Virus record (IMG/VR): IMGVR_UViG_3300022925_000181
Coordinates: 1 to 23,591 of that record
Source: a virus
DNA: 23,591 bases
Direction: 5' to 3' (one strand)
The notes under the pieces were generated by a model. The model was given only the letters and a program-made list of their open reading frames with translations, did not search any database and had not been told where the DNA came from. Shown piece after piece: positions 3,001 to 23,452 of the stretch. A program made the translations under genes and the position numbers. Numbering within the stretch: position 1 is the stretch's first letter; each line of letters starts with the position of its first letter.

Positions 3001-4108
3001 AACTATACCGTTTATTAAAGATGGAGCTGCTGGAGCTGCAGGAGCCGATGGAGCTGATGGTGTTGATGGAGACACAGGCCCTAGAAATGCTCAGGTATAT
3101 TTTTTCTATAATACTGCCCAGGATTCTGCACCTACTGCGCCAACTACGGCACAAGTTAGTTATAATTTTAGTACTCAAACAGCTAGTATTAGCGCAAGCG
3201 GATGGAGTACTACGTTTAACCCCTCAGCTTTGAGCGGTGACGATACTGGGGAAAATAAATATTGGGCAGTAAAAGTTGTTTTTCAAGAAAATAGCTATAA
3301 TGGGTCTTATTCACCAACTATAAGTAGCGTATTTACTTGGATGAACTTCGATGGCCTTGTAACTTTTACGAATCTTGCGAACGGCACTAACGTGGACGGC
3401 GTAGATACTACCTTTATTGATGGCGGATCAATAATAACAAATACTCTTGAAGTTAATACGATAAAAAGTGGTACAAATGCACAAAATACTGACCATGAGT
3501 TTGGGTTTGCTACAGACGGCATTGAAGTAAATGGAAGCGCGTATGACACTACCGGACTATTTATTACTTCAGATTCTGATACTTGCATAGCTGTAACCGC
3601 TGTAAGTGAAGCAACTAGTGGTAGTACCTCTAGCGGCTTGGCTGCAGCTTCAAGAACCTCTCCTTCAGCTTATTTTTTCTATGACTCGGAGGGTACTTGG
3701 AGCACTGCATCCTCCGATTCTTGGGTATATTTATCTAGCTCTACTAGGTTAATAGCGGCTGGGGCGGGTGGTTCTTCTGAAAAGTTTTATGTTGATACTT
3801 CCGGAAACGTAGTAGCAGCAGGAAACGTTACCGCTTACTCAGATGCAAGGCTAAAAGAGAATCTCGAAGTAATTCCGAACGCTCTTGACAAAGTAGTTTC
3901 TTTAACTGGGTATACGTTTGATAGAACCGATTTAAATATTCGCCAGACAGGATTAATTGCTCAGGACGTACAAAAAGTATTACCAGAAGCAGTGAATGAA
4001 GGAGAGTATTTAGGATTAAATTATGGCTCTTTAGTAGGATTACTTGTAGAAGCAATCAAAGACCTAAAAGCAGAGATAGAGGAATTAAAACGTGACACTT
4101 CCAAGTAG
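2..4108 (+). CDS. Tail tip attachment protein, lambda J-like, with C-terminal S74 self-cleaving chaperone (5' end cut by window)
   Basis: The frame is open from base 2, so the ATG at 215 is internal and the gene starts outside the window. Codons before that ATG read on into SYPYTAMAKTMV, matching the lambda J-type stretch before the VQVPSNY motif. Next comes TNNPAWVFYDMLTNNRYGLG, a hallmark of the J family hub. Numbering from the ATG at 215, the middle is a long beta-rich region. A short collagen-like Gly-X-Y run lies at about residues 937-957, and the C-terminus is a peptidase S74 intramolecular chaperone beginning SDARLKEN at residue 1209. The expected Ser/Lys dyad is Ser1209 and Lys1214, and a coiled coil closes the protein. 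By family knowledge, J forms the central tail tip and binds the host receptor, while S74 domains drive trimer folding and then cut themselves off. The gene overlaps the next by 17 bases. The tail-tip and S74 calls are firm; receptor binding is inferred. Confidence 0.9.
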   Translation, partial: NSSVLFEEIINLQDYKPFDDFRVTVTRTTYEDKAYNWNTNTTNPNYTTASSSSITSLNSIIKEPLSYPYTAMAKTMVNSRNFSGVPSRTYHCKGMKVQVPSNYVTRDESSTGQATYTRNVSTGSIEASYQDWDGNFRSKRVYTNNPAWVFYDMLTNNRYGLGTWLDAVDIDKYALYRIARYCDELVPYGTDSTVEPRFTTNVYLTKSTDAYKVLKDLATVFRGMLYWLDGQMVPIVDQASDPIYNFTAGNIIEGQFTYESTGSKTRSNQIVVTWNNPDSNYRLENIIVEDRENIISTGKIISEEAAAFGATSEGQAIRYGRWKLWTARNQTEIVSFKTAINAAFLAPGDIINVQDSNRYHTNIQYSGRISSTGTLTSTTIPLDRAIELNVGSTYELSVLIEEPGTFLAQTSATINSVNYVRGNLITGTFTKEEASNLVDDSGALVATVWKPHTRVESKAVSTAAGTGISSLTVSSAFSSAPSIQTIWALKELVDSYEVIGSKKMYKILAISEESKNTYSITGVEHYNEKYDAVDLEFVLAIQDPVYPIAKAGDEVPAPPAVYVVVNDLDSGNLLNDATVYWDTPLVNGQIYPDIAEYELIHNFEAYPNPLKLSKAQTSVPGLNLPIGTHTIGIRTISTQGKLSTTTKSSFTIENIPLQSISRYRGIPLGGVISTTAFVTAEGIFSLNSANYAFSPAGNPTLINTYNSELVNTYIQDCSDIPSINYSALSSAEIRQLAASYIFIDSSDPSDPLKLVKYYDDPILGLRYLYDTGIGNQAPSTNFSTQSGTVSVASGALKVVGIGTSFTTQYVVGDIIKFGTDKAAIVVYIASNTDLRIDRSFTTSIAGVAHAKSLFTYDMNDDAIIAQVRNNNGTFEYYPVNLVINPDLNNSGLSVVLQTTPSLLNFDATSSLTTTYDNIVLTASSLLFTNPEFRITGQGFDNAQISQIAETVFSPATTAPNIYTKTLDKVSTFTTTDLVFTVEVREANDPTNTNKQATSTITIPFIKDGAAGAAGADGADGVDGDTGPRNAQVYFFYNTAQDSAPTAPTTAQVSYNFSTQTASISASGWSTTFNPSALSGDDTGENKYWAVKVVFQENSYNGSYSPTISSVFTWMNFDGLVTFTNLANGTNVDGVDTTFIDGGSIITNTLEVNTIKSGTNAQNTDHEFGFATDGIEVNGSAYDTTGLFITSDSDTCIAVTAVSEATSGSTSSGLAAASRTSPSAYFFYDSEGTWSTASSDSWVYLSSSTRLIAAGAGGSSEKFYVDTSGNVVAAGNVTAYSDARLKENLEVIPNALDKVVSLTGYTFDRTDLNIRQTGLIAQDVQKVLPEAVNEGEYLGLNYGSLVGLLVEAIKDLKAEIEELKRDTSK
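4078..4083 (+). promoter_or_regulatory. Ribosome binding site supporting a GTG start
   Basis: AGAGGA lies inside the 3' end of the J-like gene, 8 bases before the GTG at 4092. It supports initiation of the overlapping Calx-beta gene at that non-ATG codon. Confidence 0.6.
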
Positions 4109-10099: not shown

Positions 10100-11098
10100 A
10101 TGAGAAGAAATTCAGGTTTTATTGGCTCATTAAAAACCATCAGTGATTCTGAGGCTAATGGTATTCATGATTTATATGATCAGTTTAACCATTCAGCAAA
10201 CTGGCCAAAACCCCTTAGTGGAACTATTACTCCTAGCACTACCAATGTCACTGAAGGTAATGATATAACATTTAGTGTTAGTGTATCTGGAAATTTTACT
10301 GGAACTTTATATTATACAATTAATGATGTTACCGGCACTATGAGCACTGATGATTTTTCTGATTCAGCATTATCAGGTAGTTTTTCAGTTACAGATGGTA
10401 GTGGTTCTTTTGTTAAATCTCTTGTCGCAGATGGAGTTGAGGAGGGCGAAGAATTTTCCGTTTCGCTGAGATCAGTATCAACTAGTGGTGATATATTAGA
10501 TACAACTACAACTATCACTGTAACTGATGCCGATGTGCCTGTAGTAGATTGGACAGATCCTATAATTACAAGTACTGGTTTCAACGGCACAAATATTCCC
10601 AATATGATGAACAATTATTATCGTAGATTTATAGTTGCTTTTTCATATACATTAGCTGAAATGGAAGCTATACTTGGATCTTCGGACACAACTATATACG
10701 GGTTGAGATATTTTGTAGATAACCCACCAACATTTCAACCCTATCCTAATTATGCTATAGGTATGAAAAACGGCGCATTCAGTGCAACTGCAAATCCTGG
10801 AAATACTGGTTATACTATAGTATCCCCCCAACAAGATCAATCCTTTACTGGAGCATCATATAAAGAAATTATATTTGATACTCCATTTGTATGGTCAGCA
10901 CTTGGTGGATTAGCAATTGTAGCAGCGTGGGGACAAGTTCCTACTTCGTATAGTGCCACAGGCACGAATCGTATCGGCGCAGGTAACTTGTATTATAGTA
11001 GAACAGATAGTGCCGGCACATACACCATTAATGTAGATACGTTTCCATCTGCCAGTTCGAATATTCGTCCAGTACTAGAATTCAAACTAACACCTTGA
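10100..11098 (+). CDS. Calx-beta-containing virion protein with unknown C-terminal domain
   Basis: This is a 332-residue protein. A leader (RRNSGFIGSLKTISDSEANG, IHDLYDQF) precedes one Calx-beta-like domain at about residues 37-150. That domain has VTEGNDITFSVSVSG, GTLYYTINDV, DDFSDS, an EEGEEF acidic turn and SGDILDTTTTITV. The last pattern closely parallels the Calx-beta gene at 4092 (STSGTVRDTTTLYV), so the two probably share ancestry. The C-terminal ~180 residues form a separate beta domain (NYAIGMKNGAFSAT, FDTPFVWSALGGLAIVAAWG, RIGAGNLYYSRTDSAG) that resembles a galactose-binding or adhesin-type module in composition. It has no signal peptide and probably acts as a host-surface adhesin on the tail. 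An alternative ATG at 10090 is in another frame and was not used. Confidence 0.65.
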   Translation: MRRNSGFIGSLKTISDSEANGIHDLYDQFNHSANWPKPLSGTITPSTTNVTEGNDITFSVSVSGNFTGTLYYTINDVTGTMSTDDFSDSALSGSFSVTDGSGSFVKSLVADGVEEGEEFSVSLRSVSTSGDILDTTTTITVTDADVPVVDWTDPIITSTGFNGTNIPNMMNNYYRRFIVAFSYTLAEMEAILGSSDTTIYGLRYFVDNPPTFQPYPNYAIGMKNGAFSATANPGNTGYTIVSPQQDQSFTGASYKEIIFDTPFVWSALGGLAIVAAWGQVPTSYSATGTNRIGAGNLYYSRTDSAGTYTINVDTFPSASSNIRPVLEFKLTP

Positions 11099-11108
11099 GG
11101 ATATTAAT

Positions 11109-11558
11109 ATGTTTTACTCACACAACAGTCAAACTCCGGTTCAAAATCTTCCCCATAGAATTAGGTTAGCAGACGGAAGTACTAAAACAGACAACGCAAC
11201 TTTTACTGAAGATGAAATTATATCCGCTGGATATGTTAAAATAACCCAGGAAAAACCAAAACCATCTCGTTTTGAAAAAGTAGAATGGACTGGAGCTGAA
11301 TGGGTCTTGTTAGAAATGACTGATGCAGAAAAAGAAGAAGTTTTAGAAATGCGATGGAAATCTATTAGGGTCATACGAGATCAATTAATTGGGGAACTTG
11401 ATTGGAAAATCCAACGATATTTAAGCGAAGTTCGATTAGAATTGCCTTTAACAGATGACATAATATTAATTGATACCTATATGCAAGAATTAAGAGACAT
11501 TACAAAACAAGAAGATCCTTTTAATATTGTATGGCCCAAATTTTCGAAAGGTATATAA
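11109..11558 (+). CDS. Tail fibre assembly chaperone (Phage_tail_APC-like), first copy
   Basis: This 149-residue protein has an N-terminal beta part that starts like other tail-fibre assembly proteins (PVQNLPHRIRLADGSTK). It has an EW-GAEW motif, and a C-terminal helical domain IRVIRDQLIGELDW, then LTDDI, YMQELRDITK and DPFNIVWP. That last block (R-x-x-R-D-x-L-x-x-x-D-W to LRD and WP) is diagnostic of the phage tail assembly chaperone domain. These proteins guide fibre trimerisation and often pair with the fibre beside them. The gene lies just before the adaptor and beta-propeller genes. A second, different member (15204) lies after them. The target fibre is inferred from adjacency. Confidence 0.8.
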   Translation: MFYSHNSQTPVQNLPHRIRLADGSTKTDNATFTEDEIISAGYVKITQEKPKPSRFEKVEWTGAEWVLLEMTDAEKEEVLEMRWKSIRVIRDQLIGELDWKIQRYLSEVRLELPLTDDIILIDTYMQELRDITKQEDPFNIVWPKFSKGI

Positions 11559-11591: not shown

Positions 11592-11984
11592 ATGAGTAAA
11601 TCCAGAGATATAGCTGATTCAGCTGATGTCATTAATAATCTTGATAACGTTACAAGCGACATTCAAAGCCAATTAGATGGAAAGCCTGGATATTATTCAC
11701 CAGAAGTTGTTTATACTTTAACAGGTGTTGACTTAGACCCAGCAAATGGGTCCCTGCAAATAAAGGCTATCAGCGAGAATACAACATTCACAGAATCCCT
11801 TAGTTCCGGACATGCTATAGTATTAATGTTAACAGGTGGAGCTTCCTATACTATAGGGTACCCAACAATAACTTGGGTAACATCAACGGGTAATTTAGCA
11901 CCTACTCTTACTGCAGCTGATACTTTAGTATTTTGGAAAACAGGATCAACCTTATATGGAGCATATGTTGGGAGTTATGAATAA
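11592..11984 (+). CDS. Adaptor/leader protein preceding the beta-propeller gene
   Basis: This is a 130-residue protein with a strong AAAGGAG ribosome binding site. The first 27 residues (MSKSRDIADSADVINNLDNV, TSDIQSQ) match the SKSRDIADSA-type leader of many phage fibres, which contributes an anchor and a short coiled coil. The rest (TFTESLSSGHAIVLMLTGG, YTIGYPTITWVTSTGNLAP, TLTAADTLVFWKTGSTLYGA) matches a compact beta-sandwich domain that commonly follows such leaders in fibre proteins. Here leader and domain form a free-standing protein, with the large repeat protein starting in the next gene. The stop and next start overlap (TAATG), implying coupled translation and possibly fixed stoichiometry. 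I infer that it links the propeller protein to the virion. That is likely but not shown. Confidence 0.65.
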   Translation: MSKSRDIADSADVINNLDNVTSDIQSQLDGKPGYYSPEVVYTLTGVDLDPANGSLQIKAISENTTFTESLSSGHAIVLMLTGGASYTIGYPTITWVTSTGNLAPTLTAADTLVFWKTGSTLYGAYVGSYE

Positions 11985-14900
11985 TGTTAAATAAAGCTTT
12001 ACAGGCTGCAGCAGGTAACGTTGCTGGAGATGTAGCACCGGTTGGTGCATGGGATGTATCCTACGCTAGTATACCAGGTGCTTCTGTTGATACAGATAGT
12101 ATTGCACCTTGGCACCCGGGAGGTGATATGCATGGATTATTTTTCAAAGCCGATGGAACTAAAATGTATGTAGTTGAAAGAAATGTCGATTATGTTCATG
12201 AATATGATCTAGTTGTACCTTGGGATATATTAACTCTTGTATATACTGGAAATTTCTTTTATGTAGGTTCACAAGAAACAAATCCTACTGCACTTTTTTT
12301 CAAACCTGATGGTACGAAGATGTACGTAATGGGGAGCACTGGTGACGATGTGAATGAATACAATTTATCTATTCCTTGGGATGTCAGTAGTGCTTTTTAT
12401 TCACAAGTGTTTTCCGTAGCTGCACAAGAAATAAATCCTTACGCACTTTTCTTCAAACCTGATGGTACGAAGATGTACGTAATGGGAATCACTGGTGATG
12501 ATGTCAATGAATACGACTTATCTGTTGCTTGGGATGTCAGTAGTGCTGTCTATTCACAGGTGTTTTCCGTAGCTTCAGAAGAGACAAGTCCATACGGAAT
12601 TCATTTTAATTCCGCCGGTACTAAAATGTTTATATGTGGTTTCACTAATTACATTTATGAATATGACTTATCCGTTGCATGGGATGTCAGTACGGCTGTG
12701 TATTTTTCTAAATATGGTGTTTATATATCAACTAACTATTTAAAGGGCATTTTTCTTTCGTCAGATGAAACTAAAATATATGCAATATCTTCTGGGACAA
12801 GTATTGCTGCAAGATTATATGCGTTTGAACTTTATACGCCTGGTACAATTTATCTAGCCGATCGGCCTGTATATTCCCAGCGGTTTTATGTAGGTTCACA
12901 AGAATCAAATCCTTATGCTCTTTTCTTCAAACCTGATGGCACAAAGATGTACGTAATAGGAACCACTGGCGACGATGTAAATGAATACGACTTGTCTGTT
13001 GCTTGGGATGTTAGTAGTGCAGTCTATTTACAATTGTTCTCTATAGCTGCACAAGAAATAAATCCTGCTGCACTTTTCTTTAAAGATGACGGTACAAAGA
13101 TGTATGTGATGGGATACAGCGGGGATGATGTGAATGAATATGATTTAGCTATTCCTTGGGATGTCAGTAGTGCTGTTTATTCACAATTGTTTTATGTAGG
13201 TTCACAAGAAAGTAATCCTTATGCACTTTTCTTCAAACCTGATGGTACGAAGATGTACGTAATGGGACTCACTGGCGACGATGTAAATGAATACAATTTA
13301 TCTATTCCTTGGGATGTTAGTAGTGCTGTCTATTCACAGGTGTTTTCCGTAGCTGCACAAGAAAGTACTCCTTACGCACTTTTCTTTAAAGATGACGGTA
13401 CAAAGATGTACGTAATGGGAGCCTCTAATAAAGCTGTATGTGCGTATGATTTATCTATTCCTTGGGATGTTAGTAGTGCTGTTTATTCACAGGCGTTTTC
13501 TGTAGTTCTTCAAGAAAGTAACCCTCAAGGTCTTTTCTTCAAACCTGATGGGACGAAGATGTATGTAGTGGGAACTATCAATGACTCTGTTTACGAATAC
13601 GATTTGCCTGTTGCTTGGTCTATGGGAAGTACTTCTCATACTGAAATTTTAGGTAGTGCCACTACCGGTAGTGGGATAATTATGAATAGCCTCGCTGACT
13701 ATATTGAAGGTATTCATTTTAACGCAACAGGAACTAAGATTTTTATTATTTCTCGATATAGCATACCCGGAGTATACGCGTATGATTTATCTGTTGCTTG
13801 GGATACTAGCACTATTATAAGTGCTTCAAGGTCTGTGCTGTTTACTTCATCGCAGGAATATTCCCCAACGTCTCTGTATTTTAGCAATGACGGATTAAAT
13901 CTATATATTGGGGGAAAAACTGGAATACATCATTATCAATTATCAGTAGCTTATGGTTTATCTTCAGCAACATATATAACAACTGAATTTGCTACTACTC
14001 CAGCAGATGTAGATACATGTCTTATATACTTTAAGTCTGATGGAACTAAAATGTATAGATTATTATCTTTAGCTGCAGGTACTTCCGTATACATAGAAGA
14101 GTATACATTATCTACTTCTTGGGATATTTCGACTACTACTTTAATCACATCTAGTTACATAGGTAATTCAAGCAATGAATATTTTTATGGTCTTTTCTTT
14201 AAACCTGACGGTACAAAAATGTATGTGGCAAGCTATTATATTTTTGGGGGTCAAGAAACCATAAGGGAATATAATCTATCGACTCCGTGGAGTATTAGCC
14301 CTAATAGCATTTCTAATAGTGTCACGCCATATGAGACTGGTGCTAGTACCCGGGGGATTTTCTTTAAACCAGATGGAAGTAAGATGTATGTTGGTGGATA
14401 TACAAGTAGATTATTTGAGTACCAGTTATCTATTCCGTGGAATATACGTTACTACAATTATCTATATGTGGGTGGTGTAGAGTCACTTCCTTACGCTCTC
14501 TTCTTTAAACCTGACGGCACAAAGATATACGTACTTGGAAGCTCTAGCAGAAGGGTTTATGAATATGACTTATCTATCGACTGGGATTTAACTACAGCTG
14601 TGTACGCGGGGTACTCTCAGTCGTTTTCTATATCTGCACAAGAAACAAATCCTCAATCACTTTTCTTCAAACCTGATGGTACTAAAATGTACGTAATGGG
14701 AAACATTGGTGACGATGTAAATGAATATGATTTGTCCGTTGCTTGGGATATAACTACAGCAGTGTACTCTCAGGTGTTTTCCGTAGCTGCACAAGAAGTA
14801 AGTCCTACTGCACTTTTTTTCAAACCTGATGGTACGAAGATGTACGTAATGGGGAGCACTGGTGACGATGTAAATGAATACGACTTATCTGTTGCTTGGG

Positions 14901-15199
14901 ATGTTAGTAGTGCTGTTTATTCACAGGTGTTTTCCGTAGCTGCACAAGAAACAAATCCTACTGCACTTTTTTTCAAACCTGATGGTACGAAGATGTACGT
15001 AACGGGGAGCACTGGTGACGATGTCAATGAATACGACTTGTCTGTTGCATGGGACGTCAGCAGTGCTGTTTATTCACAATTGTTTTCCGTAGCTGCACAA
15101 GAAAGTAATCCTTACGCACTTTTCTTCAAACCTGATGGTACGAAGATGTACGTAATGGGAGCAGCTGATATAGTATTTGAATATAATATAGGAGCATAA
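11984..15199 (+). CDS. Large beta-propeller repeat protein, putative receptor-binding/adhesin
   Basis: This is a 1071-residue protein whose ATG overlaps the previous stop. It has a short leader (MLNKALQAAAGNVAGDV), and then from about residue 40 the protein is nearly all repeats. About 20 units carry the core LFFKPDGTKMYVMG, then V-EYDLSV-WDVSSAVY and a QE-NP linker. The canonical unit is 51 residues (153 bases), and its FKPDGTKMYV motif is like the PDGxxxYV strand of YVTN, lactonase and related beta-propellers. The protein begins with the second half of a unit (AWDVSYASIPGASVDTDSIA) and ends with the first half (LFFKPDGTKMYVMGAADIV, then FEYNIGA). That matches the velcro-closed ring of a propeller. 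Units near 290-500 and after about 870 are almost uniform, whereas those near 205-290 and 520-860 have drifted. I infer two or three propellers used in surface binding. No catalytic motif was found. Confidence 0.8.
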   Translation: MLNKALQAAAGNVAGDVAPVGAWDVSYASIPGASVDTDSIAPWHPGGDMHGLFFKADGTKMYVVERNVDYVHEYDLVVPWDILTLVYTGNFFYVGSQETNPTALFFKPDGTKMYVMGSTGDDVNEYNLSIPWDVSSAFYSQVFSVAAQEINPYALFFKPDGTKMYVMGITGDDVNEYDLSVAWDVSSAVYSQVFSVASEETSPYGIHFNSAGTKMFICGFTNYIYEYDLSVAWDVSTAVYFSKYGVYISTNYLKGIFLSSDETKIYAISSGTSIAARLYAFELYTPGTIYLADRPVYSQRFYVGSQESNPYALFFKPDGTKMYVIGTTGDDVNEYDLSVAWDVSSAVYLQLFSIAAQEINPAALFFKDDGTKMYVMGYSGDDVNEYDLAIPWDVSSAVYSQLFYVGSQESNPYALFFKPDGTKMYVMGLTGDDVNEYNLSIPWDVSSAVYSQVFSVAAQESTPYALFFKDDGTKMYVMGASNKAVCAYDLSIPWDVSSAVYSQAFSVVLQESNPQGLFFKPDGTKMYVVGTINDSVYEYDLPVAWSMGSTSHTEILGSATTGSGIIMNSLADYIEGIHFNATGTKIFIISRYSIPGVYAYDLSVAWDTSTIISASRSVLFTSSQEYSPTSLYFSNDGLNLYIGGKTGIHHYQLSVAYGLSSATYITTEFATTPADVDTCLIYFKSDGTKMYRLLSLAAGTSVYIEEYTLSTSWDISTTTLITSSYIGNSSNEYFYGLFFKPDGTKMYVASYYIFGGQETIREYNLSTPWSISPNSISNSVTPYETGASTRGIFFKPDGSKMYVGGYTSRLFEYQLSIPWNIRYYNYLYVGGVESLPYALFFKPDGTKIYVLGSSSRRVYEYDLSIDWDLTTAVYAGYSQSFSISAQETNPQSLFFKPDGTKMYVMGNIGDDVNEYDLSVAWDITTAVYSQVFSVAAQEVSPTALFFKPDGTKMYVMGSTGDDVNEYDLSVAWDVSSAVYSQVFSVAAQETNPTALFFKPDGTKMYVTGSTGDDVNEYDLSVAWDVSSAVYSQLFSVAAQESNPYALFFKPDGTKMYVMGAADIVFEYNIGA
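12271..12329 (+). repeat. Long direct repeat, copy 1
   Basis: 59 bases identical to 14944-15002. The two copies lie 2673 bases apart and flank most of the diverged units of the propeller gene. They are a plausible substrate for deletion or exchange by homologous recombination. Confidence 0.85.
14944..15002 (+). repeat. Long direct repeat, copy 2
   Basis: Exact match to 12271-12329. After one mismatch (15003, which changes Met to Thr), identity resumes for about another 20 bases. Confidence 0.85.
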
Positions 15200-15203
15200 T
15201 ATA

Positions 15204-15641
15204 ATGTACTTAAGAATAAAAAATAATGATATAAAATATCCTTATAATTTAGGAACCTTTAGAAAAGAATATTCTTATATATCTTTGCCAAAGGTATTAT
15301 CTAACGACCTGCTAAAAGAATATGGAATATTTCCAGTTAAAGAAACAACAGCTCCAGATTATGATAATTTGACACATAAGTTAGTTAGAAATACCCCGGC
15401 ATTTAATAATTCCGAATGGGAAGAAGTATGGAGCATTGAAGAACTTTCAGAAGATATTGCATCAAGTAATATACGCAATAAGCGTGATAAGTTACTTACA
15501 CAAAGTGATTGGACTCAACTAGAAGATTCTCCAGTTAATAAACAAATCTGGAATATTTATAGGCAATCATTACGAGATGTTCCTGCACGAAACGGATTTC
15601 CCTATAGTATCAAATGGCCGGTAAAACCTTCATCAAATTAA
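15204..15641 (+). CDS. Tail fibre assembly chaperone (Phage_tail_APC-like), second copy
   Basis: This 145-residue protein has the classical start of this group (MYLRIKNNDIKYPYNLGTFR), an acidic middle, and EVWSIEELSEDIASS. The C-terminal domain is NIRNKRDKLLTQSDW, then NIYRQSLRDVPA and IKWPVKP. The R-D-x-L-x-x-x-D-W and LRD...WP pattern is shared with the chaperone at 11109. The two differ in the N-terminal half, so each may serve a different fibre or a different end of one fibre. The gene closes the tail module and is followed directly by the terminator. Family assignment is secure; the partner (probably the propeller protein just upstream) is inferred. Confidence 0.8.
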   Translation: MYLRIKNNDIKYPYNLGTFRKEYSYISLPKVLSNDLLKEYGIFPVKETTAPDYDNLTHKLVRNTPAFNNSEWEEVWSIEELSEDIASSNIRNKRDKLLTQSDWTQLEDSPVNKQIWNIYRQSLRDVPARNGFPYSIKWPVKPSSN

Positions 15642-15678: not shown

Positions 15679-16638
15679 TTACTTGAAAATGTCTTTCCAA
15701 TTTCCTGTTGTACTGGATCGAGAATACTCAGTAGCTCTATTCTCGAAGAAGTTAGCGTGTTCCACGCCATTTAACATATAGTCCAACCAGTCTAGAGGAT
15801 TTTTATCACTATGAAATATCTTTTTCATTCCTAATCCAAGCAGGCGTCTATCCGCAATATATCTGATATATTCCTTAACTTCAGAGGCTTCCAAGCCGGG
15901 AACATCCGCATTATTGAAGCAAAGATCAATAAAGGAATCTTCTAGTGCTACAGTTCTTTCAGCAGCACAGTAGATTTCATACTTTAAACTATCTGTCCAT
16001 ATCTCTGGGTTTTCTTGAATAAATGTACGAAATAGCTGACTCATTCCTTCAACGTGCAGGCTCTCATCTCGCACAGACCAAGTAATAATCTGTCCCATAC
16101 CTTTCATTAAGTTATGGCGAGGAAAGTTAAGTAAAATCGCAAAACTACTAAATAACTGCACCCCTTCTGTAAATCCAGAGTATATAGCTAAAGTCTTAGC
16201 AATATCTACTTTAGACCCCATACCAAAGTTACTCAAGTACTCATGCTTATCTAACATTTCCTTATGTTCTGCAAACTTCTGGTACTCCTCATCACCAAAT
16301 CCTAGTGTCTCCAGTAGCAAAGAGTATGCCTCTTGGTGTACTGCCTCCATGGAAGCAAAGGCAGCTAACATCATACGTACTTCAGGCTGTTTAAAAGTAG
16401 GTAAATAATGTGTTGCATATCCACAACACACGTCCACATCTGCCTGTGTAAAAAATCTAAAGATATTATTTATCAAAGCACGATTTTGTGGAGAGAGTTT
16501 CTCTCTATAATCTTTTAAGTCATCCGCTAAATTAACTTCTTCTGGCATCCAGTGCATATGCTGCTGACTTTTATAGTGTTCAAAAGCCCAAGCATAATTG
16601 AAAGGCTTATAATAATTACGTTCTTCTAGTAAACTCAT
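15679..16638 (-). CDS. nrdB: Class I ribonucleotide reductase small (beta) subunit
   Basis: The frame extends 8 codons further, to 16662, but the good start is the ATG at 16638. It has GAGGG 6 bases upstream and lies 2 bases after the nrdA stop; the longer start would overlap nrdA. The product (319 residues) holds the diiron and radical site: Asp67 or Asp69 in QADVDV, Glu98, His101, radical Tyr105 in MEAVHQEAY, Glu158 in FTEGVQ, and Glu192 and His195 in RDESLHVEG. With Tyr present, it should make a tyrosyl radical of the NrdB (class Ia) type. The C-terminal tail (RATEYSRSSTTGNWKDIFK) would bind NrdA. It supplies the radical for reduction of ribonucleoside diphosphates to make phage deoxynucleotides. 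It is the last gene of the minus operon. Confidence 0.97.
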   Translation of the reverse strand: MSLLEERNYYKPFNYAWAFEHYKSQQHMHWMPEEVNLADDLKDYREKLSPQNRALINNIFRFFTQADVDVCCGYATHYLPTFKQPEVRMMLAAFASMEAVHQEAYSLLLETLGFGDEEYQKFAEHKEMLDKHEYLSNFGMGSKVDIAKTLAIYSGFTEGVQLFSSFAILLNFPRHNLMKGMGQIITWSVRDESLHVEGMSQLFRTFIQENPEIWTDSLKYEIYCAAERTVALEDSFIDLCFNNADVPGLEASEVKEYIRYIADRRLLGLGMKKIFHSDKNPLDWLDYMLNGVEHANFFENRATEYSRSSTTGNWKDIFK

Positions 16639-16640
16639 TC

Positions 16641-18413
16641 TTAACCCTCGCAAGCAAGGCACGCGCCTTCTTCTGAAATTGAATCGAAAATGTACTGTCT
16701 AAGGGCTTCATCTGATACAGTCTCAGCCCTCTTCATTGCAGCACTTCTTAGATAATATAAAGTTTTTACTTTTCTTTTCCAAGCCATCATGTGTACTGCA
16801 TGAAGCTCTTGCTTAGTTACATTCGCAGGAAAAAATAAATTTAAGGACTGACTCTGGCAGATTTCTTTTTGACGATCTGAAGCGAAATCAATTAACCAAC
16901 GCTGATCAATTTCTACTGCTGTTTTAAAGACGTCTTTTGTCCACTCATCTAGAAAATCTAAGTGTTGCACAGAGCCATTATTTGTAATTATACTTTTCCA
17001 TATCTCATCTGTATTCATGCCTATTTCGTCAAGAGTATGTTCTAAGTATTCATTTTTAAGGAGGCTACTACCTGTCTTAGTTTTTTGTACAAAAGCATTA
17101 GCTCGGTAAGGTTCAATACTTGGGCTAGTATTACCACAAATGATACTACTGCTAGCATTAGGAGCAATAGCCAATAAATGAGCATTACGAATACCATAAC
17201 CAACACCGTCTGGGCATTCACCACGCTCTTTCGCCAAGAGTCTTGTAGCGCGTACGGCTTCCTGTTTAATATGTTTAAACATTTGCATGTTTCTACTTTT
17301 TGCAAGAGCACTTTGAAATGGTGTATTATGACGTTGTAAATATGCGTGGAACCCCATCGCGCCAAGGCCAATACTTCTTTCAAGGTATGCACTAGTTTTT
17401 GCTTTCTTAAGTTCATCTGGAGCTGTCCTAATAAAATAGTCTAGTACGTTGTCTAGCATACGTACGAGATCAGGGATAAAATTAGTGTCATCTTTCCACT
17501 CATCATATTCTTCCAAATTTACACTAGAAAGGCAGCATACAGCAGTTCGATCTATGCTTGTAGGCAGGGTAATTTCGGAGCATAGGTTAGAGTGATGAAT
17601 AGTCAACCCTAAGTCTTTTTGGTACTGTGGAAGTGCTTCCTGGACCGTGTCTTTAAACATTATATAAGGTTCGCCAGTCTCGACACGATTCTGAATTAAT
17701 TTTACCCATAGTGCTTTAGCGGCAACTGTTTTTGTAACCTTACCGTTATGAGGGTCAATTAAATCCCAAGAATCGTCAAAACCTGGGCTTCGTGTAGCAT
17801 TCTCGATAAGATGCATAAAATCATCGCCAATTACAACACCGTGGTGAAGATTTGTAGACTTACGGTTTATATCACCTCCAGTAGGTTTTCTAATGTCTAA
17901 AAATTCTTCGATCTCTGGATGTGAAATATCCAAATAACCAGCATAACTACCACGACGTGTAATGCCTTGTGAGAATGCTAACATTTCAGCATCTACTACT
18001 TTTAGAAATGGAATTACTCCTGTACTTTCGGAGCCATTGCTCGTTTTAGAGCCGACACTCCGAACCCCGCTCCAGCTTCCTCCAATACCTCCACCCACTG
18101 ATGAAAGGAAAGCATTCTCAGTATAGTGATCGGTAAGACCGCTTCTGCTATCATCCACATAGTTAAGAAAACAACTAATAGGTAATCCACGTGTTGTACC
18201 TCCATTACTAAGAATTGGGGTTGAGAACATGAACCATAGTTTACTTGCATAGTCATACAATCTCTGGGCGTGTTCTTCATCATCTGCAAATGCTTTAGAG
18301 GCTCTAGCAAATGCCTCTTGAGGGGAAGTCTCCTCTGCAACCATGTATCTATCTTTCATTGTTTTTATACTGAACTCTGAAAGATAATTATCTCGTCTAT
18401 AATTTAACTTCAT
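16641..18413 (-). CDS. nrdA: Class I ribonucleotide reductase large (alpha) subunit
   Basis: This 590-residue protein is much shorter than E. coli NrdA, mainly because the N-terminal ATP-cone is missing; it starts directly near the ten-stranded barrel. Active-site residues are present: Cys81 (ISCFLNY), Asn276-Leu-Cys278-Ser-Glu280, Cys293 (VCCLSSVNL), and Tyr553-Tyr554 for radical transfer. The C-terminal redox pair Cys585/Cys588 (GACLACEG) can be reduced by thioredoxin or glutaredoxin. PNASSSIICGNTSPS is the family phosphate-binding segment. Without the ATP-cone, dATP feedback control through that domain is not expected, which is common in phage enzymes. The gene overlaps the flap nuclease by 17 bases and touches nrdB. 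With NrdB it reduces ribonucleoside diphosphates. Confidence 0.97.
   Translation of the reverse strand: MKLNYRRDNYLSEFSIKTMKDRYMVAEETSPQEAFARASKAFADDEEHAQRLYDYASKLWFMFSTPILSNGGTTRGLPISCFLNYVDDSRSGLTDHYTENAFLSSVGGGIGGSWSGVRSVGSKTSNGSESTGVIPFLKVVDAEMLAFSQGITRRGSYAGYLDISHPEIEEFLDIRKPTGGDINRKSTNLHHGVVIGDDFMHLIENATRSPGFDDSWDLIDPHNGKVTKTVAAKALWVKLIQNRVETGEPYIMFKDTVQEALPQYQKDLGLTIHHSNLCSEITLPTSIDRTAVCCLSSVNLEEYDEWKDDTNFIPDLVRMLDNVLDYFIRTAPDELKKAKTSAYLERSIGLGAMGFHAYLQRHNTPFQSALAKSRNMQMFKHIKQEAVRATRLLAKERGECPDGVGYGIRNAHLLAIAPNASSSIICGNTSPSIEPYRANAFVQKTKTGSSLLKNEYLEHTLDEIGMNTDEIWKSIITNNGSVQHLDFLDEWTKDVFKTAVEIDQRWLIDFASDRQKEICQSQSLNLFFPANVTKQELHAVHMMAWKRKVKTLYYLRSAAMKRAETVSDEALRQYIFDSISEEGACLACEG
16645..16649 (-). 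promoter_or_regulatory. Ribosome binding site deciding the nrdB start
   Basis: GAGGG lies in the last codons of nrdA, 6 bases before the ATG at 16638. It favours this start over the in-frame ATG at 16662. Confidence 0.7.
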
Positions 18414-19239
18414 TTAGTAACTTATCCTTTATTTCTGAAATATTGTCAGACCCTATTGCTTCATCGCAATATGTTATTAAATCCATCAGTTGATAGTTTA
18501 CTAACAACTGTTCTGCGTTTTCGTTTAAACTCTGGATATACTTATAGCTGGATTTAAGTGGTAAAATATCATATATGTCTAGAGCACTTCCATATTCTTT
18601 TATTAGATCAGTGGCTCTCTTTGGGCCAATACCTGGAATACCTGGAACATTGTCCCCTTTATCTCCTGTCAAACATTTAAAAGAAATGTATTCTTCTATG
18701 GACACGTTATAGTGCTCGTCCCAATTATCCATTTTTACTTCCTTTCTGTTTATATAAGAAAATCTACTAACATTCTCTTCTATAAGTAAGTCCCAGTCTC
18801 GGTCACTTGATATTAGCCAAATAGTACCTAAGCAGTACAAATTTTTATCCTTTACTATATGTGCTGCTATATCGTCTGCCTCTACACCTTTGAACCTAAG
18901 TACTGGGTACCACTTAGCCAACTCTTCAAGAGTATTTTCATATTCTTGAAAGAAAGCCTCAAAAGCCTCTTTTTCTTCTACTGTTTGATCCTCAAACTTA
19001 TCTTTTCTATTCTGCTTATAGTCTGGAAAAATTGTCTTTCTATACGTAGATGATCCCCAGTCTGCTGTAATAATTATACGATTACAGTTGTAAGACTGAG
19101 CAAAAGAATTTACAGTACTTATATAGTCTGCACAAAAGTCTGTACGACCTTGATGCTTCCATCTAAATGCTAAGTTTAAGGCGTCTACTACTAAAGTAGT
19201 ATCTGTTTTTACTAGCTTATCTTTGAAATTAAATACCAT
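18397..19239 (-). CDS. 5'-3' exonuclease / flap endonuclease
   Basis: This 280-residue protein is of PIN-like FEN/T5 D15 type. Metal-site acidic residues are visible: Asp19 (VVDALNL), Asp60 (ITADWGSSTYRK), Glu120-Asp122-Asp123 (VEADDIAA), Asp146 and Asp148 (SSDRDWDLL), and Asp193 and Asp196 (TGDKGDN). The helix-hairpin-helix motif is NVPGIPGIGPKRATDLI at about 197-213. Basic residues after the TADW motif (YRK, YKQNRKD) would hold the 5' end or flap. Length fits phage and polymerase-associated flap nucleases. It would remove RNA primers and flaps in replication and trim ends in recombination. It starts inside the previous gene (11-base overlap) and ends inside nrdA (17-base overlap), so it belongs to the operon. 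T4 rnh and T5 D15 are functional analogues. Confidence 0.93.
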   Translation of the reverse strand: MVFNFKDKLVKTDTTLVVDALNLAFRWKHQGRTDFCADYISTVNSFAQSYNCNRIIITADWGSSTYRKTIFPDYKQNRKDKFEDQTVEEKEAFEAFFQEYENTLEELAKWYPVLRFKGVEADDIAAHIVKDKNLYCLGTIWLISSDRDWDLLIEENVSRFSYINRKEVKMDNWDEHYNVSIEEYISFKCLTGDKGDNVPGIPGIGPKRATDLIKEYGSALDIYDILPLKSSYKYIQSLNENAEQLLVNYQLMDLITYCDEAIGSDNISEIKDKLLNEVKL

Positions 19240-19678
19240 GATTTATAAACTCTATTTTTTCGCTTTGTAACCAATCTTCAGCGAGTATTATATAACAATT
19301 TAACCAAGAGATAAAGAAATATTTTAAGCAATGCTCAGGCTTTAAGCTAGTTACTACAAACACCTTTGACCTATTATATTTAAAAAATAATAAAGGCTCT
19401 TGATTACCATTTTTAGCTTGAAAATTTAGTTTATTCCACCAAAGTATTATGTTATTAGTCTTTTCTTGAGTAAACATTTTATCGCTTAAAGGAGATTCTG
19501 AGTAGTTTTTCACTTCTATACAGAATCTATTTCTCTCATTCGGGACATATAAGTCTCCTTTTAGGTACTCTAGCGCTCCGGACATAGGAACTCTTTCAAA
19601 GCGTAGCTTTGTAAAGTCCCTTAGCATATCTCTAATTAAATACTCTCCTCTAGCCCCTTTTGCCCTTGAATCTACCAT
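19229..19678 (-). CDS. PD-(D/E)XK nuclease, probable Holliday junction resolvase (Hjc-like)
   Basis: This 149-residue protein carries a PD-(D/E)XK core: Glu12 in KGARGEYLIRDML, Asp42 in KGDLYVP, and Glu55-x-Lys57 in FCIEVKNYSE. The start SRAKGARGE and the G-D and IEVKN spacing resemble archaeal Hjc resolvases and related phage enzymes, which bind and cut four-way junctions. Basic residues near the N-terminus would contact DNA. It lies between the gp46-like and flap-nuclease genes (1-base gap upstream, 11-base overlap downstream), which fits recombination or late processing of replicating DNA. Substrate preference cannot be read from sequence, so a VRR-type or RecB-like nuclease is an alternative. 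The fold assignment is good and the resolvase role probable. Confidence 0.72.
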   Translation of the reverse strand: MVDSRAKGARGEYLIRDMLRDFTKLRFERVPMSGALEYLKGDLYVPNERNRFCIEVKNYSESPLSDKMFTQEKTNNIILWWNKLNFQAKNGNQEPLLFFKYNRSKVFVVTSLKPEHCLKYFFISWLNCYIILAEDWLQSEKIEFINHGI

Positions 19679-19679
19679 A

Positions 19680-21482
19680 TTATTTCTCTAACCCGCTTAT
19701 ATTTCCTTTCTTTACTATTTCTATTTTATTGAGTAGTGGGTGTGTCCATGCGTGACTTACAATATAAGTATTTAAATCTTCTTCACCTAGGAGCACTTCT
19801 ATAAGTTTTTCCCTGCCTACTTCATCTAGAACATTGATTACTTCGTCTAAGAAAAGTATATTTAATTTGGACTTTGAAATACTACTCATTAACTTACGAA
19901 TAGCTATCAAAGTAGCTGTATTTACTCTTGCAAGTTCGCCAGAGCTAAGGGCAAGAATATCAATATTATTACCATCATCGGTAACTTCAACATTTAACTT
20001 ATCATTAGAAACTACAAAAGCTAATGTAAATCTACCATCTGATAGCTCAGATAAGTAGGTATTTACTAAAGCCTCTAATTCTTTTACGAGATTTTCTATC
20101 TTATAAGCTAATAGGCCATTAGTGCTAAATGCTTTTTTTAGTATTTCTAAGTTTATATTTACTGCCTGTTCTTTACTTAAAGAGTCTAGAGTACTTGTTA
20201 GCTCTTCCTGAAACTTCTCTGTCTGCTCCTGAATTACCTGAATCCTAGTATTTTTCCTGATTCTTTTTTCATTCTCTTTTGTGGTAGCATCCAGTGTTTC
20301 TTTTGCTTTCGCTATTCGACTGCGAATATCTTCTATTCTAGTATCAAGCTCTACTCTGTCTATGGGCTTCTCGTCCATGGAATAGTCAATAGACTTATAC
20401 AAGTCTGTCCACTCTTTTTCTATAGCTACTTTATGCTGGAAGTCACTATTATTCTTCCTAATTTTTGTAATTTCTGGGTTAATCTCGTTAGCTAATTTAT
20501 CTTTAGCTGCCTTAATAGTTTCTTGTTCAATTTTAATTAACTCTGACTTAAAACTGGTATCAATAGCCTGCTCACAAGTAGGGCAGTGATCTTCAAGCTG
20601 TAGTAGTTTTGCTAATAAAGTATTACAGTTTTTAATAGTAGCTGCAAGACTCCCAGCCTCACCCTGTAAATGGTCATACGATAAAATTTCTGTGGCACTT
20701 ATTGGGTAAGTACTGCTAATATCTATATCATCTAGCATTTTTTTATACTGATTATTACTTATAATTTTTTTATTTATTTCGGAAATATTTTGAAGTTCTA
20801 CTGTACTTAGACGTAATAACTTCTCATCTTCTTCCGTATTTATTTCTAATTCAATCAGTGGCAGTATGTATGTATCGGCTAAAATATTATCTTTCAACCA
20901 TTTTTCAATAGTATTTACCTGAGCATTAATACTGTTAATACGATAAGTAGACTCTTTTGCCACTTCTTTGAATACTTCAAATAATTTTACATACTCTTCT
21001 AGGTGTAATAAATCAATTAAAAACTTTTTTCTATTTGTATCTGTTGCAGTCAGAAACTGTAAACTACTGTTAGTATTCTGGTATACTAACTGTGAAAAAG
21101 TTTTGAAGTCAACACCTATTATGGCTTGAATATTTTTATAAGTATCTGTAGCCGTATGACTTGAAATATCTAGCCCATCTTGCTCTAATCTTACTTTTAT
21201 AGTGCCTCTACGAGTTATAGTTATTTCATATAGTGTACTATCTACTGTAAAAGATAAGTAAATATCATACCCACTATTTATATATCTATTTGGAATATCT
21301 GCCTTTTTTATTCCTTTAGAGTTCTTATTATATAGAGCTTCCTCAATAATTAACGGTATGGAAGATTTCCCCATACCGTTAGTGCCTACTATTTGAGTTA
21401 CAGTGCTATCGTCTAGGTCAATTTCATTATCTGCCCCATAACTAAAGCAGTTACTCCATCTGAGCTTTTTGAGAGTAATCAT
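19680..21482 (-). CDS. Recombination nuclease ATPase subunit, SbcC/Rad50/T4 gp46-like
   Basis: This 600-residue ABC-type ATPase has Walker A GTNGMGKSS (about 33-41) and a Q-loop region near YQNT (134-137). Long coiled-coil arms follow, with a zinc-hook motif Cys-Pro-Thr-Cys at 300-303. The signature LSSGEL is at 512-517, Walker B LNILFLDE is at 540-547, and the D-loop VLDEVG and a switch His577 (SHAW) follow. The arms are short compared with cellular Rad50, as in phage gp46. The frame starts within the gp47-like gene (32-base overlap). With the partner it forms the end-processing complex that makes 3' single strands for recombination-dependent replication. Confidence 0.95.
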   Translation of the reverse strand: MITLKKLRWSNCFSYGADNEIDLDDSTVTQIVGTNGMGKSSIPLIIEEALYNKNSKGIKKADIPNRYINSGYDIYLSFTVDSTLYEITITRRGTIKVRLEQDGLDISSHTATDTYKNIQAIIGVDFKTFSQLVYQNTNSSLQFLTATDTNRKKFLIDLLHLEEYVKLFEVFKEVAKESTYRINSINAQVNTIEKWLKDNILADTYILPLIELEINTEEDEKLLRLSTVELQNISEINKKIISNNQYKKMLDDIDISSTYPISATEILSYDHLQGEAGSLAATIKNCNTLLAKLLQLEDHCPTCEQAIDTSFKSELIKIEQETIKAAKDKLANEINPEITKIRKNNSDFQHKVAIEKEWTDLYKSIDYSMDEKPIDRVELDTRIEDIRSRIAKAKETLDATTKENEKRIRKNTRIQVIQEQTEKFQEELTSTLDSLSKEQAVNINLEILKKAFSTNGLLAYKIENLVKELEALVNTYLSELSDGRFTLAFVVSNDKLNVEVTDDGNNIDILALSSGELARVNTATLIAIRKLMSSISKSKLNILFLDEVINVLDEVGREKLIEVLLGEEDLNTYIVSHAWTHPLLNKIEIVKKGNISGLEK

Positions 21483-22416
21483 TGAATGTTCCTAAAATAG
21501 TTGATATATTTTCTTCTGGTATCTCTAGTATATAGAGTAGATACTCTGAAAGCTCTTCTGCTATAGTCATGTCTTTATCTATTACTAAACTAGCTTCATT
21601 ACTTCTTTTTATTACTTTTTTATCTAATAGCTCCGAATTTTTAACTCCGGCAAGATTCTGAATATCTCCTTCCAGCTCATATATGGTATGATCATATGTG
21701 CTTGCGATCATTTCATCTACGGAAGTTACTGTTTTCCTAAGTAGCTGAGGCAGCTCAAAGGCCTCCCACTTCCACTGCCAAGTAGACTCATCAATTAGTA
21801 GGTAACCCGTCTCTACTTTATTTCTATGAAAGGAGGTAGTCATAGGACTACCAGGGTATACTATATTTTTTTGGGTATTACTATGGGAGTGTAGGTCGCC
21901 CGAAAAAACTATAGGGAACTTTTCAAGTCTACTAAGTTCTATTTCTGGCTTTACGTGTGGGGGTATTTCAGCCCTTACATGAGTAAAAAGGGGCATAGAC
22001 ATATCAAATAGCTCAATACTATTATCTTTATGCAGGTCTGCATAAGGAAGTATATTAAACTTAAACTGAGAGTCTGTATATGAGGTATCTATTATAGTAA
22101 TAAGAGGATTAACATATTTACTAGCCTCTTTTAACTGAGTGAAAAAAGTTTTATTCTTTTTTGTGGCTTCATGGTTACCGTCATAGATAATAGTAGGAAT
22201 TTGTACTCCTCGAATAAACGAGAAGTACAATTCCAGTTCTTCCATAGTAGGTAGTCTATCAAAAATATCCCCACCTATAATATGTAAATGTAAATCAGGC
22301 CTTGACTCAATAAGCCTAACTTGGTCAAAGAAAGATTTATATCTATTACGCGCCCAGGCAACTGGTACATTCTTCTGCCCCAGTTTTATATGCCAGTCTG
22401 CGGTAAATAGTATCAT
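21451..22416 (-). CDS. Recombination nuclease catalytic subunit, SbcD/Mre11/T4 gp47-like
   Basis: This 321-residue metallophosphoesterase has the five standard blocks: TADWH (Asp7, His9), GGDIFDR (Asp50), GNHE (Asn81, His82), THVRAE (His146) and GDLHSH (His176, His178). Length is close to T4 gp47. It is the nuclease half of the gp46/gp47 complex, cutting in an ATP-gated manner. The start codon overlaps the SSB stop (ATGA), and its end overlaps the gp46-like gene by 32 bases, so the three are likely made together. After about 220 the protein lacks obvious enzyme motifs and probably forms the capping domain and the ATPase-binding region. Confidence 0.95.
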   Translation of the reverse strand: MILFTADWHIKLGQKNVPVAWARNRYKSFFDQVRLIESRPDLHLHIIGGDIFDRLPTMEELELYFSFIRGVQIPTIIYDGNHEATKKNKTFFTQLKEASKYVNPLITIIDTSYTDSQFKFNILPYADLHKDNSIELFDMSMPLFTHVRAEIPPHVKPEIELSRLEKFPIVFSGDLHSHSNTQKNIVYPGSPMTTSFHRNKVETGYLLIDESTWQWKWEAFELPQLLRKTVTSVDEMIASTYDHTIYELEGDIQNLAGVKNSELLDKKVIKRSNEASLVIDKDMTIAEELSEYLLYILEIPEENISTILGTFNDYSQKAQME

Positions 22417-23045
22417 CCGATTTTAAACTCATCTTCCAAAGTTTCATCAATCTCACCGGCAGGAGTGCTACGTAAACGATCAAGCAGCTCTTTTTGTGCA
22501 TCTGCTGTAGGTCGTGGCATAACCTCATCCATAGACTTAAGGTCTACTACTAAAGCGGTCTCTGCTTCTGTCAGAGGGCGAATTTTACATTTGAGAGGCT
22601 GAAGCTGATACTCTACATTATAAGGTAGTGGGCCGGTCTTGACTCGTTTAAAGCATAGGTCCCACCCAACTGAAACATCTGTAGGATCACCAAGGTCTTC
22701 TGCTGTGGTCATAATCTGTTCCCACAATTTTTTCTTCAAGTTCAGTACTTTGAGCTTGCCGTCTGTGGGGTCAATACACTGAGTGGCATAGCTCCAACCA
22801 CATTTCAAGTCAGGGTAATACTCACGAACCCAATCTTTTTCTTTATTAGTAAATCGTTCGAGGTTTCGATCAAAAGATAAACATTCAAAAGGAATATTTT
22901 TCTTATTATCTCCCTCAATCCAATATACATATCTAGCAAGAATATCGCCAACGATACGTACTTTATTATCTCCATCTCGATACACAAAAGTATCAATAGA
23001 TGATTTAATTGCACCGCCTTTCTGTTTGTTAAATGATATAGCCAT
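22413..23045 (-). CDS. Single-stranded DNA-binding protein, gp32-like
   Basis: This 210-residue protein has a strong AAGGAG ribosome binding site 8 bases before the ATG. The N-terminus (NKQKGGAIKSS) is basic and is followed by an OB-like beta core (FVYRDGDNKVRIVGDILARY, VYWIEGD, IPFECLSFDRNLERF). Basic and aromatic residues (KDWVREYYPDLKCGWSY, then KLKVLNLKKKLWEQ) would contact DNA. The last residues (EIDETLEDEFKIG) form an acidic tail, typical of phage SSBs that recruit partners. Position before the gp47/gp46 pair fits recombination. Homology to T4 gp32 is not plain by eye, so 'gp32-like' is a role call made from composition, tail and context. Confidence 0.68.
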   Translation of the reverse strand: MAISFNKQKGGAIKSSIDTFVYRDGDNKVRIVGDILARYVYWIEGDNKKNIPFECLSFDRNLERFTNKEKDWVREYYPDLKCGWSYATQCIDPTDGKLKVLNLKKKLWEQIMTTAEDLGDPTDVSVGWDLCFKRVKTGPLPYNVEYQLQPLKCKIRPLTEAETALVVDLKSMDEVMPRPTADAQKELLDRLRSTPAGEIDETLEDEFKIG

Positions 23046-23452
23046 TAATGCTTCTCCTTAGGGACTTCTTCATAGCGAAAATAGATATTATCTTCATCTA
23101 ATGTAAGTAGCCTGTTTTCTGTTAATATGTTTTGTATAACGGTATCGGAAGGTACTTTTATTCTATCTAGTGAAACTTTATTTGTAGAAATATAATCAGC
23201 AATACTTCGTATAGATGCTATGCTTATATATGTTGCTACTTCCTTCATAGAGTATCTAAAGGCATAATAAAGTAGTACATCTGGATTTAATAAAAAACTT
23301 TCTCCCGTAAAATTTATGTTGCTATATTTAAATATAGGGTCGTATCTATTCTTCGGGACTTCTTTATATGTAAGCATCTTTATAATTTGATAGCAGTTAT
23401 AGGGGTTTCCCTCTGCCTCTGTAAAGACTTTTTGCCAGTTGAATAATATCAT
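23045..23452 (-). CDS. Hypothetical protein, first complete gene of the early operon
   Basis: This 135-residue protein is not recognised. It has an N-terminal FNWQKVFTEAEGNPYNCYQI segment, then PKNRYDPIFKYSN, FTGESFLLNPDVLLYYAFRY, a helix ATYISIASIRSIADYI, and an acidic end. The layout suggests a small alpha-rich DNA-metabolism protein rather than an enzyme, since no catalytic motif is seen. Its stop overlaps the SSB start by one base, so it is coupled to SSB. The ATG at 23452 has little Shine-Dalgarno sequence, and a perfect promoter's -10 box ends one base upstream of it. A true start could be downstream (for example Met26, 23377), but the first 25 residues look like protein sequence. The start is therefore uncertain. 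Confidence 0.6.
   Translation of the reverse strand: MILFNWQKVFTEAEGNPYNCYQIIKMLTYKEVPKNRYDPIFKYSNINFTGESFLLNPDVLLYYAFRYSMKEVATYISIASIRSIADYISTNKVSLDRIKVPSDTVIQNILTENRLLTLDEDNIYFRYEEVPKEKH
23054..23059 (-). promoter_or_regulatory. Strong Shine-Dalgarno for the SSB gene
   Basis: AAGGAG, 8 bases before the ATG at 23045, inside the 3' end of the 135-residue gene. It is much stronger than the signal in front of the upstream gene, which suits an abundant SSB. Confidence 0.7.

Follow-up and report, generated by a model that had tools for sequence, protein, structure and literature searches.

YVTN/lactonase-type propellers have seven blades in a single ring. In phages, the receptor-binding protein (RBP) of Staphylococcus phage phi11 contains a five-bladed propeller platform with a cavity that was proposed to hold GlcNAc (PMC4901313). 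The head of PRD1 P2 forms a distorted five-bladed ring and PhiKZ gp131C is seven-bladed (both cited in PMC4901313). Propellers built from highly repetitive, recently amplified WD40 repeats are represented by 2ymu and the WRAP proteins, and those studied are seven-bladed (PMC6805158).

The window, i.e. the whole stretch of 23591 bases analysed here, is one complete virus record, and its contig is a fragment. It contains an intact, open reading frame of 1071 aa with exactly 20 unit cores (core motif [LI]xFxxDGTKMY). The core-to-core distance is 47-60 aa and mostly 51 aa, the length of the canonical unit. The most plausible reading of the encoded adhesin is a row of four five-bladed propellers rather than two or three larger rings (probability about 0.8). 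The features of the locus are as follows.

215-4108 (+): central tail fibre J-like protein with a Peptidase_S74 end (family match; tail module context)
11109-11558 (+): second Phage_tail_APC gene, upstream of the adhesin (family match, PF16778, 3.4e-07)
11592-11984 (+): small ORF of 130 aa, overlapping the adhesin start codon by a single base, the last of the ORF and the first of the codon (gene reading)
11984-15199 (+): adhesin ORF, 1071 aa, 20 unit cores (ORF reading, motif search)
11984-12094 (+): leader (MLNKALQAAAGN...) and lone WDVS half-unit, aa 1-37 (sequence; helix 2-9 predicted with low confidence)
12095-12829 (+): putative ring 1, units 1-5, aa 38-282, with a short closing strand at aa 38-40 (sequence, model)
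12830-12880 (+): junction after unit 5, YTPGTIYLADRP linker in place of the WDVS half (sequence, model)
12881-13603 (+): putative ring 2, units 6-10, aa 300-540 (sequence, model)
13604-13672 (+): junction after unit 10, unit lengthened to 60 aa (sequence)
13673-14425 (+): putative ring 3, divergent units 11-15, about aa 564-814, modelled with low confidence (sequence, unit DNA identity, model)
14426-14458 (+): junction after unit 15, unit shortened to 47 aa (sequence)
14459-15187 (+): putative ring 4, units 16-20, aa 826-1068, unit 20 being a three-strand half-unit (sequence, model)
15204-15641 (+): tail assembly chaperone directly downstream of the adhesin (family match, PF16778 Phage_tail_APC, 1.6e-21)

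The original prediction, made from the sequence of the window, described about 20 repeat units, with the second half of a unit at the start of the protein and the first half at its end. Both features are found. The leader MLNKALQAAAGN is followed by a lone 'WDVS...' half-unit ahead of core 1, and the chain ends after '...FEYNIGA', with only the initial three strands of unit 20.

To determine the number of units in related proteins, the ORFs of loci found in two scans of viruses and one of cellular genomes were searched with a profile of the unit, and the proteins were clustered at 70% identity. The viral scans, which answer the earlier call for a search of phage proteins with the repeat core, confirmed 189 relatives in one case and 574 in the other. 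The relatives occur in many, largely marine, viruses and some are found in cultured phages. Raw core counts were used for the ring-size statistics. The core count is divisible by five in 94 of 99 non-redundant complete viral proteins (binomial p 5e-59), with 5 cores in 11 proteins, 10 in 63 (a share that is inflated because 10-unit proteins were the seeds of the second viral scan), 15 in 17 and 20 in 3. The rule also holds in the first viral scan, for which the 20-unit window protein served as seed, and in 32 of 39 non-redundant cellular-genome proteins (binomial p 1e-16). Several of the exceptions appear to be fragments or to contain weak units that escaped the count: L225 has 18 cores and a 162-aa gap, L197 has 14 cores and an 85-aa tail, and L076 is an ORF of 174 aa.

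The spacing of the cores points to the same number. It is irregular at 94 of 123 fifth-unit junctions compared to 79 of 1008 other places (p 2.6e-62). Junction spacings span 39 to >600 aa, and a block of five is therefore regarded as a domain and the intervening sequence as a linker. An initial count with 'missing' units inserted into large gaps was dropped, the gaps being linkers between blocks of five. Among cultured phages, CRP-13 and CRP-2 have an arrangement of 5+5+5 units with 128-135 aa from the last core of a block to the first core of the next, the marine phages ICBM2 and S-SKS1 have one block of five each, and CRP-738 has 4+5 units, one unit being missed or lost. At the sequence level, the counts and the stand-alone five-unit blocks thus indicate exactly five blades per domain.

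Structure prediction was applied to a 10-unit relative (L009) and to the full-length window protein. The AlphaFold model of L009, based on an alignment of 26 sequences (A1), reached a pLDDT of 93.9 and a pTM of 0.85. It contains 40 strands of at least 3 residues, four per unit, as in four-stranded blades. Strands of 3 residues are located at 34-36 and 294-296, where each five-ring would take its closing strand; the other outer (D) strands have 8 residues. Independent viral models can be superposed on about half of it (236-272 columns, 1.7-2.4 A), as expected of a rigid five-unit domain. The top fold matches of the model are propellers. Those from the PDB are tandem seven- and six-bladed proteins (TM 0.3-0.5), and no five-bladed entry was recognised among the best 50 PDB matches. 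In the window model, which had been proposed as a check, short closing strands are predicted at 38-40, 300-302 and 826-828, so that the split-blade pattern fits rings 1, 2 and 4. The model has a pTM of 0.41 and does not fix the orientation between rings, and ring 3 (about 564-814) is poorly predicted because the alignment is poor there. We infer that the rings close in three dimensions and that ring 3 folds. The earlier claim of a beta-propeller is judged right, and its closure through a split blade probably so, the predicted strand order and the short closing strands being in agreement with it. The two or three rings suggested at the same time are not borne out, since the fives in counts, junctions and closing strands point to four rings. 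With five blades per ring, a 7-unit slice, as suggested for modelling, would not be a natural domain.

According to the proposed architecture, the adhesin would form four five-bladed beta-propellers in a row on the tail. Each blade would comprise four strands, A-B-C-D, and each ring would be closed via a split blade, in which a short D strand at the ring start pairs with the A-B-C strands at the ring end. The same break would recur at both termini and at the junctions.

The predicted tail location of the adhesin is supported by the tail-module genes around it and by fusions in its relatives. In the window, the adhesin is encoded in a tail module (gpJ-like protein, S74, two APC genes) beside a fibre-assembly gene, and Calx-beta/Ig-like ORFs as well as small fibre-like ORFs are also found upstream. 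The N-terminus of the 130-aa ORF resembles fibre leaders (MSKSRDIADSA...) of the kind found fused to propellers in L080 and L203. In L206 and L228, five-unit blocks are joined to tail-fibre segments (phrog_38058, E about 1e-34), and a baseplate wedge subunit (phrog_2885, 1037 bits) is fused to the five-unit block of S-SKS1. A homologue of the downstream APC chaperone is located within 400 bases in 51 of the 91 viral relatives for which the sequence extends far enough downstream; the other 40 have no recognised APC gene next door, and none of 38 cellular relatives has a homologue within 400 bases. In Lentibacter phage ICBM2, the homologous adhesin gene is flanked by two annotated tail assembly chaperones. 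The chaperone encoded by the adjacent gene probably helps the adhesin fold or assemble.

Two successive candidate sets of adhesin and chaperone can be seen in the window (10100-11558 and 11592-15641), each with its own Phage_tail_APC gene in last position, and the pair resembles the repeated adhesin/chaperone pairs of ICBM2. The lambda gpJ-like tail protein with its S74 end shares the contig with genes (15679-23452) that, read by eye, resemble ribonucleotide reductase, RNase H, SbcC/D-like (gp46/47) and single-strand binding proteins.

Sequence variability is concentrated in two loops of the unit. Based on the mean entropy per column over 514 units and the strand map of the model, the B-C and D-A loops have 2.60 and 2.30 bits, compared to 1.06 and 1.17 bits for the A-B and C-D loops. 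In the propeller fold, the B-C and D-A loops lie on one face. The most variable columns of the near-identical window units, columns 3, 19 and 51 (with 4, 6 and 4 different amino acids, respectively, in eight units), fall in the same region as the variable loops of the family. A variable face on a conserved scaffold fits a receptor-binding protein. Mounted on the tail, the adhesin may bind a host surface molecule by its variable D-A and B-C loops, with one face per ring; receptor binding is the function that the unit sequences and the models suggest. Family members differ by whole rings, of which the phage proteins have 1 to 4, and such changes would alter avidity or the number of specificities.

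Rings of another size, either one or two large ten-bladed rings or an arrangement of 7+7+6, are quite improbable. A total of 20 also equals two tens, and seven- or six-bladed propellers head both the sequence relatives and the PDB fold matches, but fifteen-unit and stand-alone five-unit proteins are common, blocks of exactly five are set apart by linkers that can reach several hundred residues, and every five units the short closing strand returns. Seven-bladed rings in particular are rejected on the count and junction statistics, which fall at five. Slightly less probable still is an open solenoid or fibre shaft with a role in structural spacing instead of binding. Fibre shafts often hold long tandem repeats and the window model (pTM 0.41) does not set the orientation between rings, yet a solenoid would leave the multiples of five and the split-unit ends of each block without a reason, and it does not account for blocks of five that stand alone as autotransporter passengers or for variability gathered in loops of one face.

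That the protein is an enzymatic tail propeller (lactonase or glycan-active) and not a plain adhesin is unlikely. Phage propellers can be endosialidases (PMC4901313) and there are weak SGL/Lactonase matches. The SGL match of the window protein (54.6 bits, cut-off 26.3), however, has a best stretch of 28 residues, no enzyme family describes the relatives, the differences among near-identical units are centred on the loops, and no one blade was found to stand out as divergent and catalytic. A string of four five-bladed adhesin rings is retained as the preferred reading.

The 153-base periods with near-identical units noted in the original prediction were recovered by Tandem Repeats Finder (TRF) as arrays at 12263-12704, 12867-13575 and 14611-15163. 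Units 2, 3, 6, 8, 17, 18 and 19 share 79-93% DNA identity and are spread over three rings. Units 4, 5 and 11-15 mostly have 40-60% DNA identity to any other unit and match the regions described as drifted (about residues 205-290 and 520-860). In most near-identical pairs, the share of identical codons is 65-93%, whereas the codon usage of the neighbouring genes predicts 47%, and unit homogenisation is therefore above chance. A GENECONV-like permutation test yielded one significant tract (units 9/18, global p=0.003; units 8/9, p=0.056), and a PHI-like recombination test on the window units was not significant (p=0.20). In the family, units of one protein share an identity of 0.535, compared to 0.525 for units in matching positions of different proteins, and the nearest neighbour of a unit belongs to its own protein in only 71 of 630 cases; family-wide gene conversion or concerted evolution is unsupported by these values. 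Of the pattern originally proposed, local homogenisation thus stands, and repeated gene conversion is suggested at most by the single tract. The unit sequences indicate that blades have been copied recently in the window lineage, by conversion or by amplification, and the data fit both.

Whole-ring duplication alone was rejected as the source of homogenisation in the window, where the closest pairs are found at lags such as 16, 17, 6 and 1, not at multiples of five. A small lag-5 excess in the 63 ten-unit proteins (+0.026, p=3.7e-06) suggests that ring duplication may have founded the arrays. A doubtful possibility is retroelement-free diversification, in which ring cassettes would be gained and lost and blade recombination would reshuffle columns 3, 19 and 51 between rings. 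If so, one gene would carry several receptor specificities and make new ones by copying blades. Among the window genes read by eye, on a contig that is a fragment, none looked like a reverse transcriptase, which together with a template repeat near the gene would mark a DGR.

Cellular relatives include three from Pelagibacteraceae/Alphaproteobacteria (L122:5959-8001, L149:5959-8115 and L152:5863-8307), in which a five-unit block is the passenger of an autotransporter. They have a signal-peptide-like N-terminus and an autotransporter beta-domain (PF03797, 1e-23 to 1e-34). With five-unit autotransporter passengers in SAR11-type bacteria, phages and bacteria appear to share a surface-exposed module. 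In Polaribacter sp. (L091:5935-9702), ten units are followed by a long C-terminal part with a match to Por_Secre_tail (secretion sorting domain) just below the cut-off. Very long proteins of Reichenbachiella (L142) and Marinoscillum (L140) contain five or six evenly spaced five-unit blocks with about 120 aa of other sequence between them.

No Pfam, NCBIfam or PHROGs family describes the adhesin or its relatives, and no curated family, YVTN/lactonase included, covers a ring as a whole-domain match. Matches to Pilin_N, Phage_connector, PFO_beta_C, MmpL3 stabiliser and other Pfam/NCBIfam families are considered artefacts of repeat scoring, because no single stretch passes or the score is far below the cut-off, and because the matches differ between relatives. 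No DNA-level relatives of the window were found among 50,697 phage records (INPHARED). The closest solved sequence relative (A1 profile, PDB sequences) is the surface-layer propeller 1l0q (1.7e-15), which is seven-bladed; none of the 14 PDB sequence matches of this profile is a phage receptor-binding protein. None of the open-access papers searched quotes the unit motif, and among phage propeller adhesins they yielded phi11 but no tail strings of two to four five-bladed rings. The notion of an undescribed type of tail adhesin appears to hold for the unnamed family and its string of rings but not in the sense of an isolated oddity, given the 189 and 574 relatives, some of them in cultured phages. 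Propeller adhesins are already known, as is the amplification of near-identical blades in cellular propellers (PMC6805158). What appears to be new is the tandem five-blade string, which is unnamed in the libraries and open-access papers searched.

The multiples-of-five rule covers a large group of tail proteins in phages, which are now listed as 'hypothetical' or under misleading enzyme names. Judged by its sequences, the family looks like strings of putative surface-binding discs that grow and shrink by one whole disc at a time. The natural series of 1, 2, 3 and 4 rings makes the effect of ring number on host binding measurable, and the recently homogenised blades of the window provide a case for how propellers amplify.

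Compared to known systems, the best profile-level sequence relatives of the window units are YVTN/lactonase-type propellers (1l0q, YbhE), which differ in having a single seven-bladed ring instead of blocks of five. Like 2ymu and WRAP, the window protein is an example of new propellers from amplified near-identical blades (PMC6805158), but its blades are YVTN-like, 51 aa long, arranged in fives and part of a phage tail. PRD1 P2 and PhiKZ gp131C also have propellers in presumed phage receptor-binding or baseplate-edge proteins and are not among the sequence relatives found with the A1 profile in PDB sequences. The phi11 RBP shares with the window protein the five blades and the role of a phage tail adhesin, and its propeller is likewise absent from these matches. 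It has one ring per chain and is a homotrimer with stem and tower, whereas the window adhesin has four rings in a row, near-identical blades and an adjoining APC gene. The proteins of Roseobacter phages CRP-2, CRP-13 and CRP-738, Lentibacter phage ICBM2 and Synechococcus phage S-SKS1 differ from the window protein in having 5 to 15 units, about 25-40% identity and an annotation as hypothetical or none, but are built of the same units in blocks of five (4+5 in CRP-738) and are encoded in or near tail genes.
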